A program made the position numbers and the translations under genes. From contig QIBA01000036.1 in assembly GCA_003225175.1 (NCBI GenBank), positions 62,001-126,000 of the forward strand: a DNA stretch of 64,000 nt. Reading direction: 5' to 3'. Source of the DNA: Acidobacteriota bacterium (lineage in GTDB: Bacteria > Acidobacteriota > Terriglobia > Terriglobales > Acidobacteriaceae). Position 1 is the first letter of the stretch. Each line of letters opens with the position of its first letter. Shown one piece after another: positions 60,419-64,000 of the stretch. The notes beneath the pieces were generated by a model, which saw only the letters and a list, made by a program, of their open reading frames with translations, had not been told where the DNA came from and did not search any database.

Positions 60419-60500
60419 CCCTCGTCTTGCGCGCTTTTCCCAGCGCCATATAGACTGAGGAGTTTGTGATGTGCACGTTGCGCACACAGGAGGAGTTCGC

Positions 60501-60749
60501 ATGCCTGGGGTACAAGATAAAGTTAAGCAGATCATTGTGGACCAGCTCAGCGTGGAAGAGGGCGAGGTTACACCCAGTGCATCTTTCGTCGACGATCTCG
60601 GCGCCGATTCGCTTGACCGCGTAGAACTTATCATGGCCTTCGAGGAAGCTTTCGATCTCGAAATTCCGGACGAAGAAGCCGAGAAGATCAAGACTGTGCA
60701 GGACGCCGTCAGCTACATTGAGAAAAATTCCAAAATAGCCAAGCAATAG
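60501..60749 (+). CDS. acpP: acyl carrier protein 1
   Basis: An 82-residue acidic ACP that carries acyl chains on a 4'-phosphopantetheine attached to Ser37 ([11 protein letters not shown]). ATG 60501 follows AGGAGGAGTTCGC, a strong ribosome binding site. Its sequence matches the second copy (60966-61211) closely through the helix-II region. It lies ahead of an ACP remnant, then ACP 2 and fabF. Confidence 0.9.
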
Positions 60750-60965: not shown

Positions 60966-61211
60966 ATGGCCGCAGTAGACGAGAAGGTTAAGCAGATTAT
61001 TGTGGAGCAACTTGGCGTCGATGAAGGTGAAGTCACCCCCAACGCGTCGTTCGTGGACGACCTTGGCGCCGACTCGCTCGATACTGTCGAACTCGTGATG
61101 GCATTCGAAGAGGCCTTCGACATTGAAATTCCTGACGAGGAGGCTGAGAAGATCAAGACGGTAAAGAACGCCATCGACTACATAAACGCCCACGCGAAAG
61201 GTGGCAAGTAA
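60966..61211 (+). CDS. acpP: acyl carrier protein 2
   Basis: An 81-residue ACP with the pantetheine site Ser37 ([19 protein letters not shown]), differing from copy 1 mainly at the C-terminus ([11 protein letters not shown] instead of [12 protein letters not shown]). GGAACGCG precedes the ATG. Its TAA is two bases before the TTG start of fabF, the classic acpP-fabF arrangement of fatty acid synthesis, which makes this copy the best candidate for the housekeeping ACP. Confidence 0.93.
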
Positions 61212-61213
61212 GC

Positions 61214-62458
61214 TTGAGTCGTAGGGTCGTCGTCACTGGATTGGGCCTGATTTGCGCGGTGGGCAACACCAGTGCGGAGGCTTGGACGAATCTACTGGCA
61301 GGCAAGAGCGGCGTTGCGACCATCACCGGTTTTGATACCAGCGGGTACGCCTGCACCATCGCCGCCGAGGTCAAGAACTTCGATCCACTAAATTTCATCG
61401 AGAAAAAAGAGGCCCGCAAAATGGGCCGGTTCATTCATCTGTGCATGGCGGCTACAGATGAAGCGGTAAAGATGTCGGGCTTAAATATCACATCTGATAT
61501 TGCCGAGCGCGTAGGCGTACACATCGGCTCCGGCATTGGCGGATTTGACATCATCGAGCGCGAGCACTCGAACCTGCTCAAGGGCGGTCCGCGCAAGATC
61601 TCGCCATTTTTCATTCCCGCGGCGATCATCAATCTTGCTGCTGGACATGTGAGCATTCGCTACAACGCCAAGGGGCCGAACGAGGCGACAGCCACGGCCT
61701 GCACGACGAGCGCACATTCGATAGGCGACGCATACAAAATCATCGCGCGTGGCGACGCGGACGTGATGATCGCCGGCGGTACCGAAGCTGCGATAACTCC
61801 GATGGGCGTTGGCGGGTTTGCGGCTATGCGCGCACTCTCTACGCGAAATGATTGTCCAGAAAAGGCAAGCCGGCCGTTCGATATCGATCGCGACGGTTTC
61901 GTGATTGGTGAGGGTGCAGGCATCCTGATTCTCGAGGACCTGGAGTTCGCCCGCCGACGTGGAGCGACTCTCATGGCCGAAATAATCGGCTACGGCATGA
62001 GCGCTGACGCATACCACATCACTCAACCTGCCGAAGAAGGCGAAGGCGGGTATCGCGTGATGCTGAATGCGCTGCGCGACGCCAAGCTCAAACCGGAGCA
62101 GGTGGATTACATCAACGTGCACGGCACTTCGACCCCATTGGGAGACGTGCTCGAAACCAAAGCCATCAAGCACGCTTTCGGAGAACATGCCAGCAACGGC
62201 CTTGCCGTAAGCTCCACCAAATCCATGACCGGACATCTGCTCGGGGGGGCCGGCGGCCTCGAAGCGGGAATTACCGTTTTGGCATTACGCGACCAGATGC
62301 TTCCACCGACGATTAATCTCGACAATCCAGATCCGGAATGCGATTTGGATTACATCCCGAATAAGTCGCGCAAAGCCGAAGTCAATATCGCGCTCTCGAA
62401 CTCGTTTGGATTCGGCGGGACTAATGGCTCGCTGATTTTCCGCCGCTGGGCTGGCTAG
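61214..62458 (+). CDS. fabF: beta-ketoacyl-ACP synthase II
   Basis: A 414-residue condensing enzyme of type II fatty acid synthesis, elongating acyl-ACP with malonyl-ACP. It starts at TTG 61214, two bases after the acpP stop. The catalytic triad is Cys163 (ATACTTSAHSIGDAYK), His303 (NVHGTSTPLGD) and His341 (TKSMTGHLLGGAGG). Both the length and the ends (VVVTGLGLICAVGN; NSFGFGGTNGSLIF) are standard. Confidence 0.96.
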   Translation: MSRRVVVTGLGLICAVGNTSAEAWTNLLAGKSGVATITGFDTSGYACTIAAEVKNFDPLNFIEKKEARKMGRFIHLCMAATDEAVKMSGLNITSDIAERVGVHIGSGIGGFDIIEREHSNLLKGGPRKISPFFIPAAIINLAAGHVSIRYNAKGPNEATATACTTSAHSIGDAYKIIARGDADVMIAGGTEAAITPMGVGGFAAMRALSTRNDCPEKASRPFDIDRDGFVIGEGAGILILEDLEFARRRGATLMAEIIGYGMSADAYHITQPAEEGEGGYRVMLNALRDAKLKPEQVDYINVHGTSTPLGDVLETKAIKHAFGEHASNGLAVSSTKSMTGHLLGGAGGLEAGITVLALRDQMLPPTINLDNPDPECDLDYIPNKSRKAEVNIALSNSFGFGGTNGSLIFRRWAG

Positions 62459-62566: not shown

Positions 62567-63538
62567 CTAAGAGCGCACTGCGCACGCGAGTATGAAATTT
62601 CCATCGCGGCTCTCCCATTGAGATTCAATCCGGAATCCTGCGTCCCCAACTAAACTGAGAAGACCATCTCGATTCGCGTACTTGATCGAGCTGCTCATCC
62701 TCAGCGTCTCTCCTTCGGGAATCTCAATGATATGAGCACCGATGTTTACACGCAGATCGCGGGTCGCGGTGAAATGCTTTGTAACTGCGAACAGACCGTC
62801 ACCTGCTGCCGCAGTAGAAAATTCCAGCTTGCCGTCGTTTTCCGTAATGCCAACTCCAGTGAGCGGGCCCCACGCAAAACGCCGGTTGGTCGGATTATCG
62901 TAGCCTGCAAGCGTTTGCTCGTTGAACATCTCGCCATCAAAGAGGAACCGGTCCTGGCTGCGCATATGAGTTCGCAGACGTCGGGGAAAGTTGTGTGGAT
63001 CGAATGCTCCAAGAGTGTTACCCAAAACTGAGAGCAAAACGGGCCCCTCGAAGCTCTCGGCGGCGCCGACCGCCGCAGCTAAATGGCCTTCATCGAAAAT
63101 ATCGAGCTTGCAGCCGAGACTTGACTGGACAATTCCGTCCACCTGATCGGCAGCAAGTTCGAGCAACGGCTGACTGAAATCGGCAGCCACGTAATTCAAT
63201 AGATAGCCCTGGTTGGCGAATTGCTCAAGCAAGACGCGATCCTTGCTTCCCTCGCCGCATCCGAGACCGCAGAGCGTGCGAATGTGAGGAAGCTGTCGGC
63301 CCAGGTCACTAGCCGCCAGATTCAGCACCTCGAGTGCGCGACTCGCGTTTACATATTCGGTTGAACGGCACAGATCGACCCACGCCTGAACCGACGATGG
63401 CAGCCAGTAAAACAGGTGCTCCGGCAGATATCGCTGCTGAAAGGCGATTTGTAGTTGTTCAGCAATTTCCTGCTCGCGCAGCAGCACGATGGTATAGAAA
63501 GGCAATTTCGTTGGACCGGGTGCCGAATTGGAAGCCAT
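62567..63538 (-). CDS. EgtD-like (histidine-specific methyltransferase fold) SAM-dependent methyltransferase
   Basis: About 323 residues from ATG 63538 (GGTTGAG ahead), close to the 321 residues of EgtD. The N-terminal segment (LREQEIAEQLQIAFQQRYLPEHLFYW) and the SAM-binding region (TLCGLGCGEGSKDRVLLEQF, then YVAADFSQPLLELAA) match the Methyltransf_33 / DUF2260 fold. A further conserved strand is LSVLGNTLGAFDP. EgtD itself trimethylates histidine on the route to ergothioneine; no egtB is nearby, so the substrate is open. Its gene is divergent from the putative RiPP precursor across 173 bases. Confidence 0.8.
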   Translation of the reverse strand: MASNSAPGPTKLPFYTIVLLREQEIAEQLQIAFQQRYLPEHLFYWLPSSVQAWVDLCRSTEYVNASRALEVLNLAASDLGRQLPHIRTLCGLGCGEGSKDRVLLEQFANQGYLLNYVAADFSQPLLELAADQVDGIVQSSLGCKLDIFDEGHLAAAVGAAESFEGPVLLSVLGNTLGAFDPHNFPRRLRTHMRSQDRFLFDGEMFNEQTLAGYDNPTNRRFAWGPLTGVGITENDGKLEFSTAAAGDGLFAVTKHFTATRDLRVNIGAHIIEIPEGETLRMSSSIKYANRDGLLSLVGDAGFRIESQWESRDGNFILACAVRS

Positions 63539-63711
63539 CTCAACCGCATTGTATCGGGCGCCAGATCCCGCCAATCCCAGTCAGGGATGTAAAAACTGCT
63601 CAATTTGCCCAAATTCGGCCGCTCTGAGAGAATTTCGCACACCGGTTTGGACTTCTGAAGCATCTAGTCACTGGCTGTAACACAATTCGGAGAATTACAA
63701 GGAGAAACTGA

Positions 63712-63852
63712 ATGAAGATTATCGAGATCAGCGAAGTAGCTCCGACAAGTCACTCCAATTTAAGACTGGTTGAGACCGCCGAGGTGGCCCCGACCTGTCA
63801 CAACGGCCTAAAGCTGGTTGAGAGCACTGAGGTCGCTCCCACCTGCCACTGA
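63712..63852 (+). CDS. 46-residue repeat peptide, candidate multi-core RiPP precursor
   Basis: A 46-residue ORF with a strong ribosome binding site (AAGGAGA, six bases from the ATG). The protein is three near-identical 16-residue units: Glu8-, Glu24- and Glu40-Val-Ala-Pro-Thr-(Ser/Cys)-His, separated by (S/N)(N/G)L(R/K)LVE(T/S)(A/T). The last unit stops right after Cys45-His46. Unit one has Ser13 where units two and three have Cys29 and Cys45. There is no signal peptide, transmembrane helix or known domain, and no classical long leader: the first seven residues (MKIIEIS) are the only non-repeat part. A tandem Thr-(Ser/Cys)-His motif conserved while the spacer drifts is what multi-core RiPP precursors show. 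No family was recognised. Confidence 0.8.
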   Translation: MKIIEISEVAPTSHSNLRLVETAEVAPTCHNGLKLVESTEVAPTCH

Positions 63853-63863
63853 TTGAGCGCATG

Positions 63864-63904
63864 CTAGAGACGCTGTCCGCCGTGGCGGCGGACTGCGTCT
63901 CTAG
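63864..63904. repeat. 18-bp hairpin of the GAGACGC repeat type
   Basis: CTAGAGACGCTGTCCGCC and its inverse GGCGGACTGCGTCTCTAG enclose a five-base loop (GTGGC), with one internal mismatch. It begins 12 bases after the repeat peptide's stop and ends 15 bases before the next ATG. The outer eight bases match the 27890-27991 repeat family. Confidence 0.85.
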
Positions 63905-63918
63905 GTTGCTGAGTGCAC

Positions 63919-64000
63919 ATGCCACAAATTCCTCAAAACCGGCTCTCGATCGGCACCTTCTACAATCCACATCTTGCGCAATTTACGCTGGATCATCTTG
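63919..64000 (+). CDS. 5' end of the gene following the repeat peptide (partial)
   Basis: ATG 63919 (an in-frame GTG lies at 63913) starts a frame that is open to the window edge, giving 27 residues: MPQIPQNRLSIGTFYNPHLA then QFTLDHL. No strong ribosome binding site is seen. The pattern hydrophobic-Gly-x-x-Tyr-x-Pro-x-Leu followed by F-x-L-D-H is reminiscent of the N-terminus of DUF692 (MNIO, multinuclear iron oxidase) proteins that modify RiPP precursors; the likeness is weak and rests on a few residues. The rest of the gene lies outside the window. Confidence 0.5.
   Translation, partial: MPQIPQNRLSIGTFYNPHLAQFTLDHL

Follow-up and report, generated by a model that had tools for sequence, protein, structure and literature searches.

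What could be the product of a gene for a peptide of 46 residues, made of three units of 16 residues each, and which enzyme would act on it? This question is raised by an acidobacterial stretch of 64,000 nucleotides, hereafter the window. The original prediction, made from its letters, took the gene for a multi-core RiPP precursor with Cys motifs. The translation of the ORF bears out the three in-phase units (E8, E24 and E40, the last one ending the protein), and a strong ribosome-binding site does stand in front of the gene (Table 1). The reading as a multi-unit, RiPP-type gene stood, with an MNIO gene beside it; it can be added that unit 1 carries Ser, so that this genome has two Cys cores, not three.

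It had also been argued from codon usage that the repeat is under selection, and the comparison of the units with one another points the same way, as they differ at four to five of five synonymous sites and at none or one of 16 non-synonymous ones. Across nine aligned orthologues, the pooled pS is 0.51 and the pN 0.10 (pN/pS 0.20): the precursor peptide is under purifying selection.

Table 1. Features of the precursor locus and loci with an in-frame TGA (positions refer to the window unless a locus is named)
Feature	Position	Strand	Basis or remark
EgtD-like methyltransferase gene (Methyltransf_33), divergent from the precursor	62567..63574	-	77 bits, cut-off 23
Ribosome-binding site AAGGAGAA, 5 bases 5' of ATG	63699..63706	+	sequence
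Precursor peptide gene, 46 aa, three 16-residue units; reads MKIIEISEVAPTSHSNLRLVETAEVAPTCHNGLKLVESTEVAPTCH	63712..63852	+	conservation with close MNIO, pN/pS
Unit 1, EVAPTSH, Ser replacing Cys	63733..63753	+	private to the window's genome
Unit 2, EVAPTCH	63781..63801	+	
Unit 3, EVAPTCH, C-terminal	63829..63849	+	
Inverted repeat TAGAGACGC...GCGTCTCTA, between precursor and MNIO genes	63865..63903	.	sequence
MNIO gene, 275 aa, first 82 bases in the window	63919..64000	+	whole gene L002:3920-4747, past the window's end
Partner-protein gene, 255 aa	L002:4750-5517		two bases after the MNIO stop codon
TGA loci, Acidobacteriota	L051, L054, L059, L060, L061, L063, L066, L068		
TGA locus, Planctomycetota	L065		
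TGA loci, Rokubacteria	L067, L072		

The inverted repeat that follows the precursor is possibly an interspersed repeat or an attenuator, and similar hairpins (AGAGACG...CGTCTCT) occupy the same place in L031, L033 and L071. A search of the window for the pattern AGAGACGC...GCGTCTCT, with arms at most 20 bases apart, gave 0 matches because the window's own copy has 21 bases between its arms.

The precursor and its unit across genomes

Within the order, the MNIO was found at E <= 1e-20 in 21 of 298 genomes. Seven of them carry a close MNIO (67-100% identity, one copy being broken), and the same peptide is encoded upstream in all seven. The other 14 have a distant MNIO only (30-34%), and no such peptide was found in their fetched loci of about 3.5 kb, where a single regex match proved to lie inside a long unrelated ORF.

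By running the MNIO alignment against one genome per species (84,980 species), 44 loci of this subfamily were gathered from Acidobacteriota, Gemmatimonadota, Nitrospirota, Rokubacteria and Planctomycetota, all of them from MAGs, no isolate being known among the carriers. The original prediction had named, as what would speak against it, a repeat with no conserved neighbour across the genomes that carry it; what was found, at 42 of the 44 loci, is a conserved short ORF with the Cys motif in direct linkage with the MNIO gene. The two exceptions are L058, with no recognisable precursor within 1.7 kb upstream, and L052, where none was found in the 0.2 kb of upstream sequence.

These 42 loci, together with the window's own genome (G000), G109, G139 and L099, provide 46 precursors with 93 units, every one of which can be written as [VIL]-[ED]-x5-P-[TSA]-[C/U/S]-H. 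The P, the [CUS] and the H are not independent findings because they were included in the search pattern, of which neither V/I/L at -9 nor E/D at -8, both present in 93 of 93 units, formed part. The core residue is Cys in 80 units, a TGA codon in 12 and Ser in one, and the spacing between units is 15 residues in 27 instances and 16 residues in 20. The number of units per precursor is three among relatives of the window, two in Gemmatimonadota and Nitrospirota, and four in L047. Altogether, the Cys lineages repeat the core two to four times; the other lineages have a single, TGA-encoded core at the C-terminus.

It could be argued that such a peptide remains unmodified, serving as a microprotein with metal or redox activity or as a regulatory leader, and that the MNIO acts elsewhere. 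It is very short and has almost no leader, its modification is a candidate one only, and it occupies an upstream regulatory position with a hairpin behind it. However, its amino acids are under the purifying selection described above, and the precursor stays with the MNIO over five phyla in differing gene orders. Moreover, the Cys-type precursor profile (E <= 1e-5) gave no match outside the window's genome among 396 genomes of the phylum, a profile that is insensitive to the short TGA forms and missed three Sec-form genomes among the same 396. We regard this alternative as very improbable, and the units as very likely the substrate of the MNIO.

In-frame TGA codons at the core position

At 11 of the 44 loci the frame runs to ...VPT and then stops; if TGA is translated as U, it reads ...VPT-U-H before the next stop. 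A twelfth case came from an MNIO profile search of the 396 genomes of the phylum, whose four matches were the window, the two genomes that contain L051 and L068, and the previously unseen G431; its locus (L099) reads VPT-TGA-CAC-stop and was reached through the MNIO only, the pattern being already known. The TGA falls exactly at the Cys codon in 12 of the 46 precursors, all 12 having E/D at -8, and the next codon is CAC in every one of them, with the stop following at once in nine and after AAC in three.

Behind the TGA of the eight acidobacterial loci of the first scan there is a hairpin (GATCCGGC-loop with GT-GCCGGxATC and similar) with 94.2% of its cells paired. Three of its pairs are changed on both sides, which was equalled in 4 of 500 shuffles; its covariation of 0.267 was reached in none of 500 shuffles, and versions slid along the sequence gave at most 0.152. 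The three loci of Rokubacteria and Planctomycetota, as well as L099, present different stems at a similar distance after the TGA. The apical GT starts some 20-27 bases after the TGA, a spacing in keeping with bacterial SECIS elements. The hairpin z-scores differ between the forms (mean -1.22 for Sec, n=11, vs +0.18 for Cys, n=31; p 0.0008), these being related sequences and not independent ones. A generic scan for SECIS-like hairpins did not separate them (11 of 11 Sec vs 31 of 32 Cys loci), because the Cys loci carry terminator-like hairpins further downstream, and the search of Rfam gave no family for the hairpin, its three chance matches lying below gathering.

With regard to the decoding machinery, tRNA-Sec scores above gathering in 10 of the 11 TGA genomes of the first scan and in G431, i.e., in 11 of 12, and ARAGORN assigned the anticodon TCA to 12 of 12 stretches, 11 from TGA genomes and one from the window's own. 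SelB is above cut-off in 7 of the 11 first-scan genomes, which are incomplete MAGs.

The standard reading of DNA would make of these 12 codons ordinary stops, so that the precursors would end in ...LVPT with their Cys-His lost. The Sec machinery is common in any case, tRNA-Sec being present in 125 of 199 genomes of the phylum and in 40 of the 46 cluster carriers of either form, and one TGA-form genome, G682, has no tRNA-Sec above cut-off, yet it has SelB and is an incomplete MAG. Nevertheless, a plain stop sits badly with the His codon right after the TGA in 12 of 12 loci and the closing of the frame one or two codons on, with a TGA placed precisely at the Cys position of a unit that keeps its E/D, with a covarying hairpin at a roughly fixed distance behind it, and with the occurrence of the TGA form in two separate lineage sets. 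In an MNIO tree built by a quick method, the Cys/Sec label needs two changes, below every one of 500 shuffles. The rooting of this tree is unsafe, since L010_out, one of its four outgroup rows, sits on a branch of length 10, probably from a wrong-frame reading; the count of two changes is independent of the root. Taken together, the TGA at the Cys codon, the CAC, the near stop, the hairpin and the tRNA-Sec point to a family with Cys and selenocysteine forms. In the 12 relatives the TGA is most likely read as selenocysteine, ordinary termination appearing highly unlikely.

Two observations can be added here. The window's genome, whose own precursor uses Cys, encodes a tRNA-Sec (G000:C44:44150-44244, 64 bits, anticodon TCA) and a SelB (G000:C30:19999-21879, 377 bits). 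In the two Rokubacteria loci, a common ORF end (...RVEVVNVGRGGALACAFVA...) is found just upstream of the Sec precursor (L067:2780-3070 and L072:3132-3338).

If the TGA does encode selenocysteine, these precursors would rank with the smallest known selenoproteins and would be, within the open PMC literature searched, the first MNIO substrates with Sec. Annotation would pass over them, as their reading frame looks finished after 15-25 residues. They would also constitute a new family beyond the 119 prokaryotic selenoprotein families and subfamilies inventoried in 2026, among which selenobacteriocin (TIGR04081) is listed as the sole RiPP (PMC13188914). The PTUH motif is absent from the motifs given in the accessible part of that inventory, where a formate dehydrogenase entry has the motif UHxP, in a large enzyme (PMC13188914). 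Selenobacteriocin resembles the present family in being a RiPP precursor (SbtA) with Sec from TGA and a SECIS just behind (PMC11002830), but differs from it in its modification by a radical-SAM enzyme (SbtM; PMC11002830) and in its SGUG motif and the two Sec residues listed for it (PMC13188914). Three of the 12 Sec precursors were scanned with NCBIfam and gave no match to any model, TIGR04081 included, up to E 10.

The MNIO, its partner and the proposed core reaction

The gene for a modifying enzyme had been expected just downstream of the precursor, with DUF692/MNIO among the profiles to try. The next ORF is indeed a match to Pfam PF05114 (DUF692), with 105.1 bits (cut-off 25), and the gene of a partner protein comes after it. 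The MNIO profile matches TglH at 2e-19. In the latter, Fe1 and Fe2 are bound by His71, His107, Glu151, Asp184, His216 and Glu258, and Fe3 by Asp184, Asn187, Asp229 and His231 (PMC10880893). H71, H107, E151, D184 and H216 align with H58, H91, E138, D171 and H202, invariant in 31 members, the sixth ligand, E258, falling outside the profile alignment. The third iron site would differ from that of TglH because N187, D229 and H231 face His174, Pro215 and Ile217 in the same alignment, and a site of the TglH kind is unlikely here.

The partner has no DUF2063 match. Its AlphaFold model (mean pLDDT 90.4, from an alignment of 34 rows) has its best Foldseek matches in TglHI (8hci_A, E 1.4e-6, and 8hi7_A) and NGO1945 (3dee, 1.1e-3). 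As modelled, the partner has the TglI fold, a DUF2063-like plus an RRE-like fold without the DUF2063 signature, i.e., what Antoine et al. term a PME-type 2 partner (PMC12452194).

A close relative (G206; L030:6000-7900, minus strand; also L071) has a broken MNIO gene, in which residues 3-115 and 177-272 are matched in separate frames and what lies between them is absent; the precursor, partner and methyltransferase genes next to it seem whole. This is either a real pseudogene or an assembly fault.

Among the NCBIfam models, those of aminopyruvatide biosynthesis are the best for both proteins, ApyH for the enzyme (NF050151, 106 bits, cut-off 400) and ApyI, faintly, for the partner (NF050149, 21.6 bits, cut-off 200). 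These scores are far below the cut-offs and membership was rejected; furthermore, the YLY motif described for ApyA (PMC13192836) is absent from our precursor. The methanobactin and chryseobactin models were likewise discarded (MbnB 17 of 325 bits, ChrH 30 of 600). That no described family was known with this motif, as originally stated, agrees with NCBIfam and with a search of open PMC papers, in which we found no report combining MNIO/DUF692 with selenocysteine, or MNIO with ergothioneine. The main text of a study on MNIO precursors makes no mention of seleno, Acidobacter, Gemmatimon, Methyltransf, OpuAC or betaine (PMC12452194).

The superfamily brings to mind a copper chelator of the bufferin or captophorin kind, in which the MNIO would turn Cys into 5-thiooxazole and the His would aid metal binding. 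Tens of thousands of MNIOs have been tied to thiooxazole metallophores (PMC12668002), a radical-SAM route from Sec precursors to a thio(seleno)oxazole is known (PMC11002830), and a Cys adjoining a His suits metal binding. The BufB and HvfB models do match, but weakly (97 and 59.5 bits) and below cut-off (310 and 360 bits), and membership in the bufferin/HvfA type was rejected. Bufferins, oxazolins and captophorins share with the present system the MNIO superfamily and the Cys-centred motifs, whereas the signal peptides and DUF2063 partners described for them (PMC12452194) have no counterpart here, no Sec-type signal peptide being evident by eye. The peptide also lacks the DUF2282 or Lys-Cys features described for bufferin/HvfA-type clusters, and a thiooxazole alone would leave the EgtD-like methyltransferase and the betaine transporter unexplained. 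Altogether, we find a chelator of this kind unlikely.

It is likely, in our view, that the ORF is a RiPP-type substrate belonging to a cassette in which the Cys/Sec-His pair would be oxidised on a scaffold, methylated to a betaine and transported. The partner would bind each unit by its acidic [VIL]-[ED] part and present the Cys/Sec-His pair to the MNIO, which would oxidise the Cys or Sec of the presented core. The bond made could be a thio- or selenooxazole, a carbon loss as in TglHI, or a coupling to the His. In the Cys forms, more copies would offset the less reactive residue; a Sec form would have room for a single core, since no UGA can do without a hairpin of its own right after it. A Sec analogue of the TglHI substrate inhibits TglHI (PMC9016710), so a Sec-accepting MNIO would have to differ from it. 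The Cys and Sec forms offer a natural experiment on the part of selenium in the oxidative MNIO reaction.

The closest parallel is pearlin (3-thiaglutamate) biosynthesis by TglA and TglHI, with an MNIO of the same superfamily, a partner that shares the TglI fold and a small molecule obtained from a scaffold peptide that ends in Cys (PMC9016710). It is set apart by its Cys, added by a tRNA-dependent ligase, whereas that of the present units is encoded and followed by His, and by the changed Fe3 ligand positions, the EgtD-like methyltransferase, the transporter and the Sec forms found here.

Methyltransferase, transporter and other neighbours

A link with the neighbouring methyltransferase had been suggested from the window, and the wider comparison supports it: of the 48 loci compared (the 44 loci, L100 and the windows of G000, G109 and G139), 42 have an EgtD-like methyltransferase next to the cluster. 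Five of the remaining six (L045, L051, L052, L058 and L072) are cut by contig ends; L067 is not, and the 3.3 kb flanking it on each side contain no methyltransferase gene. In most Cys loci, and in L065, the gene lies upstream of the precursor and divergent from it; in the acidobacterial Sec loci its place is downstream of the partner gene.

A profile of 35 members of this methyltransferase matches the EgtD structures 7scf and 4pim (2.7e-19 and 7e-16); the window's protein alone gave no PDB chain at E 0.01 with phmmer, and 56.6 bits with the NCBIfam egtD model (TIGR03438), whose cut-off of 290.9 is not reached. The equivalents of EgtD Tyr39, Tyr56 and Ser284 are kept, with Ser or Asn at the position of Glu282, the imidazole contact in EgtD; the substrate is thus probably not plain histidine. 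The likeness to EgtD and EgtU consists in the Methyltransf_33 family and in a binding protein of the OpuAC family, to which EgtUC belongs, the unmet egtD cut-off and the change at Glu282 being the differences from EgtD. The absence of EgtB (TIGR03440), above cut-off in 0 of 19 genomes, is weak evidence because the controls also gave 0 of 14, with no working positive control.

A complete OpuC-type ABC transporter (ATPase, permease and OpuAC binding protein, with OpuAC matches of 187 and 206 bits) is encoded in 23 of the 48 loci, that of L040 lying on the opposite side of the cluster, and L054, L056, L060 and L063 have a partial one. In 11 of the 48, the window's own Terriglobales relatives, no such transporter was found nearby, so that the window itself may lack the betaine step. 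The PDB relatives of the binding protein are choline/betaine binders, sensors derived from those, and EgtUC (160 bits, not the best).

Could methyltransferase and transporter be independent neighbours, engaged in osmolyte or ergothioneine housekeeping? The Terriglobales loci without transporter and L067 without methyltransferase are in line with this idea, as is a binding protein that resembles choline/betaine binders at least as much as EgtUC. Against it, the genes stay together while their order changes, being divergent upstream, downstream of the partner or, in L100, in a single seven-gene operon whose members follow one another on the same strand, from methyltransferase through ATPase, permease, binding protein, precursor and MNIO to partner. 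We consider mere neighbourhood rather unlikely.

For the later steps of the proposed cassette, a small fragment might be cut off after the oxidation and its amino group methylated to a betaine by the EgtD-like enzyme, the product then being moved by the ABC transporter. The peptide might be a disposable scaffold, as in pearlin biosynthesis. A more particular version seems doubtful to us, that of a ribosomal route to metabolites of the ergothioneine or selenoneine type: the MNIO would move or couple the sulfur or selenium of Cys/Sec to the adjacent His, the unit would be released, trimethylated to a betaine by the EgtD-like enzyme and transported in EgtU-like fashion, and the Sec lineages would put selenium in via the genetic code. 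Given the EgtD-like and transporter genes, the idea of a betaine made on a ribosomal template can be put directly to the test.

Other genes accompany the cluster. Most Gemmatimonadota loci have an extra aldo-keto reductase gene between precursor and MNIO (217 bits in L046), and an LssY_C gene stands between MNIO and partner in L046 (8783-9985, 140 bits) and in at least seven other loci of this phylum. Of two ORFs next to the cluster of G095 (L028:8810-10133), one resembles an arsenite methyltransferase and the other an ArsR/MarR-type regulator, as judged by eye from their translations. In the window itself, two tandem ORFs resembling acyl carrier proteins (60471-60749 and 60966-61211) precede a ketoacyl-synthase-like gene (61214-62458), as judged by eye.
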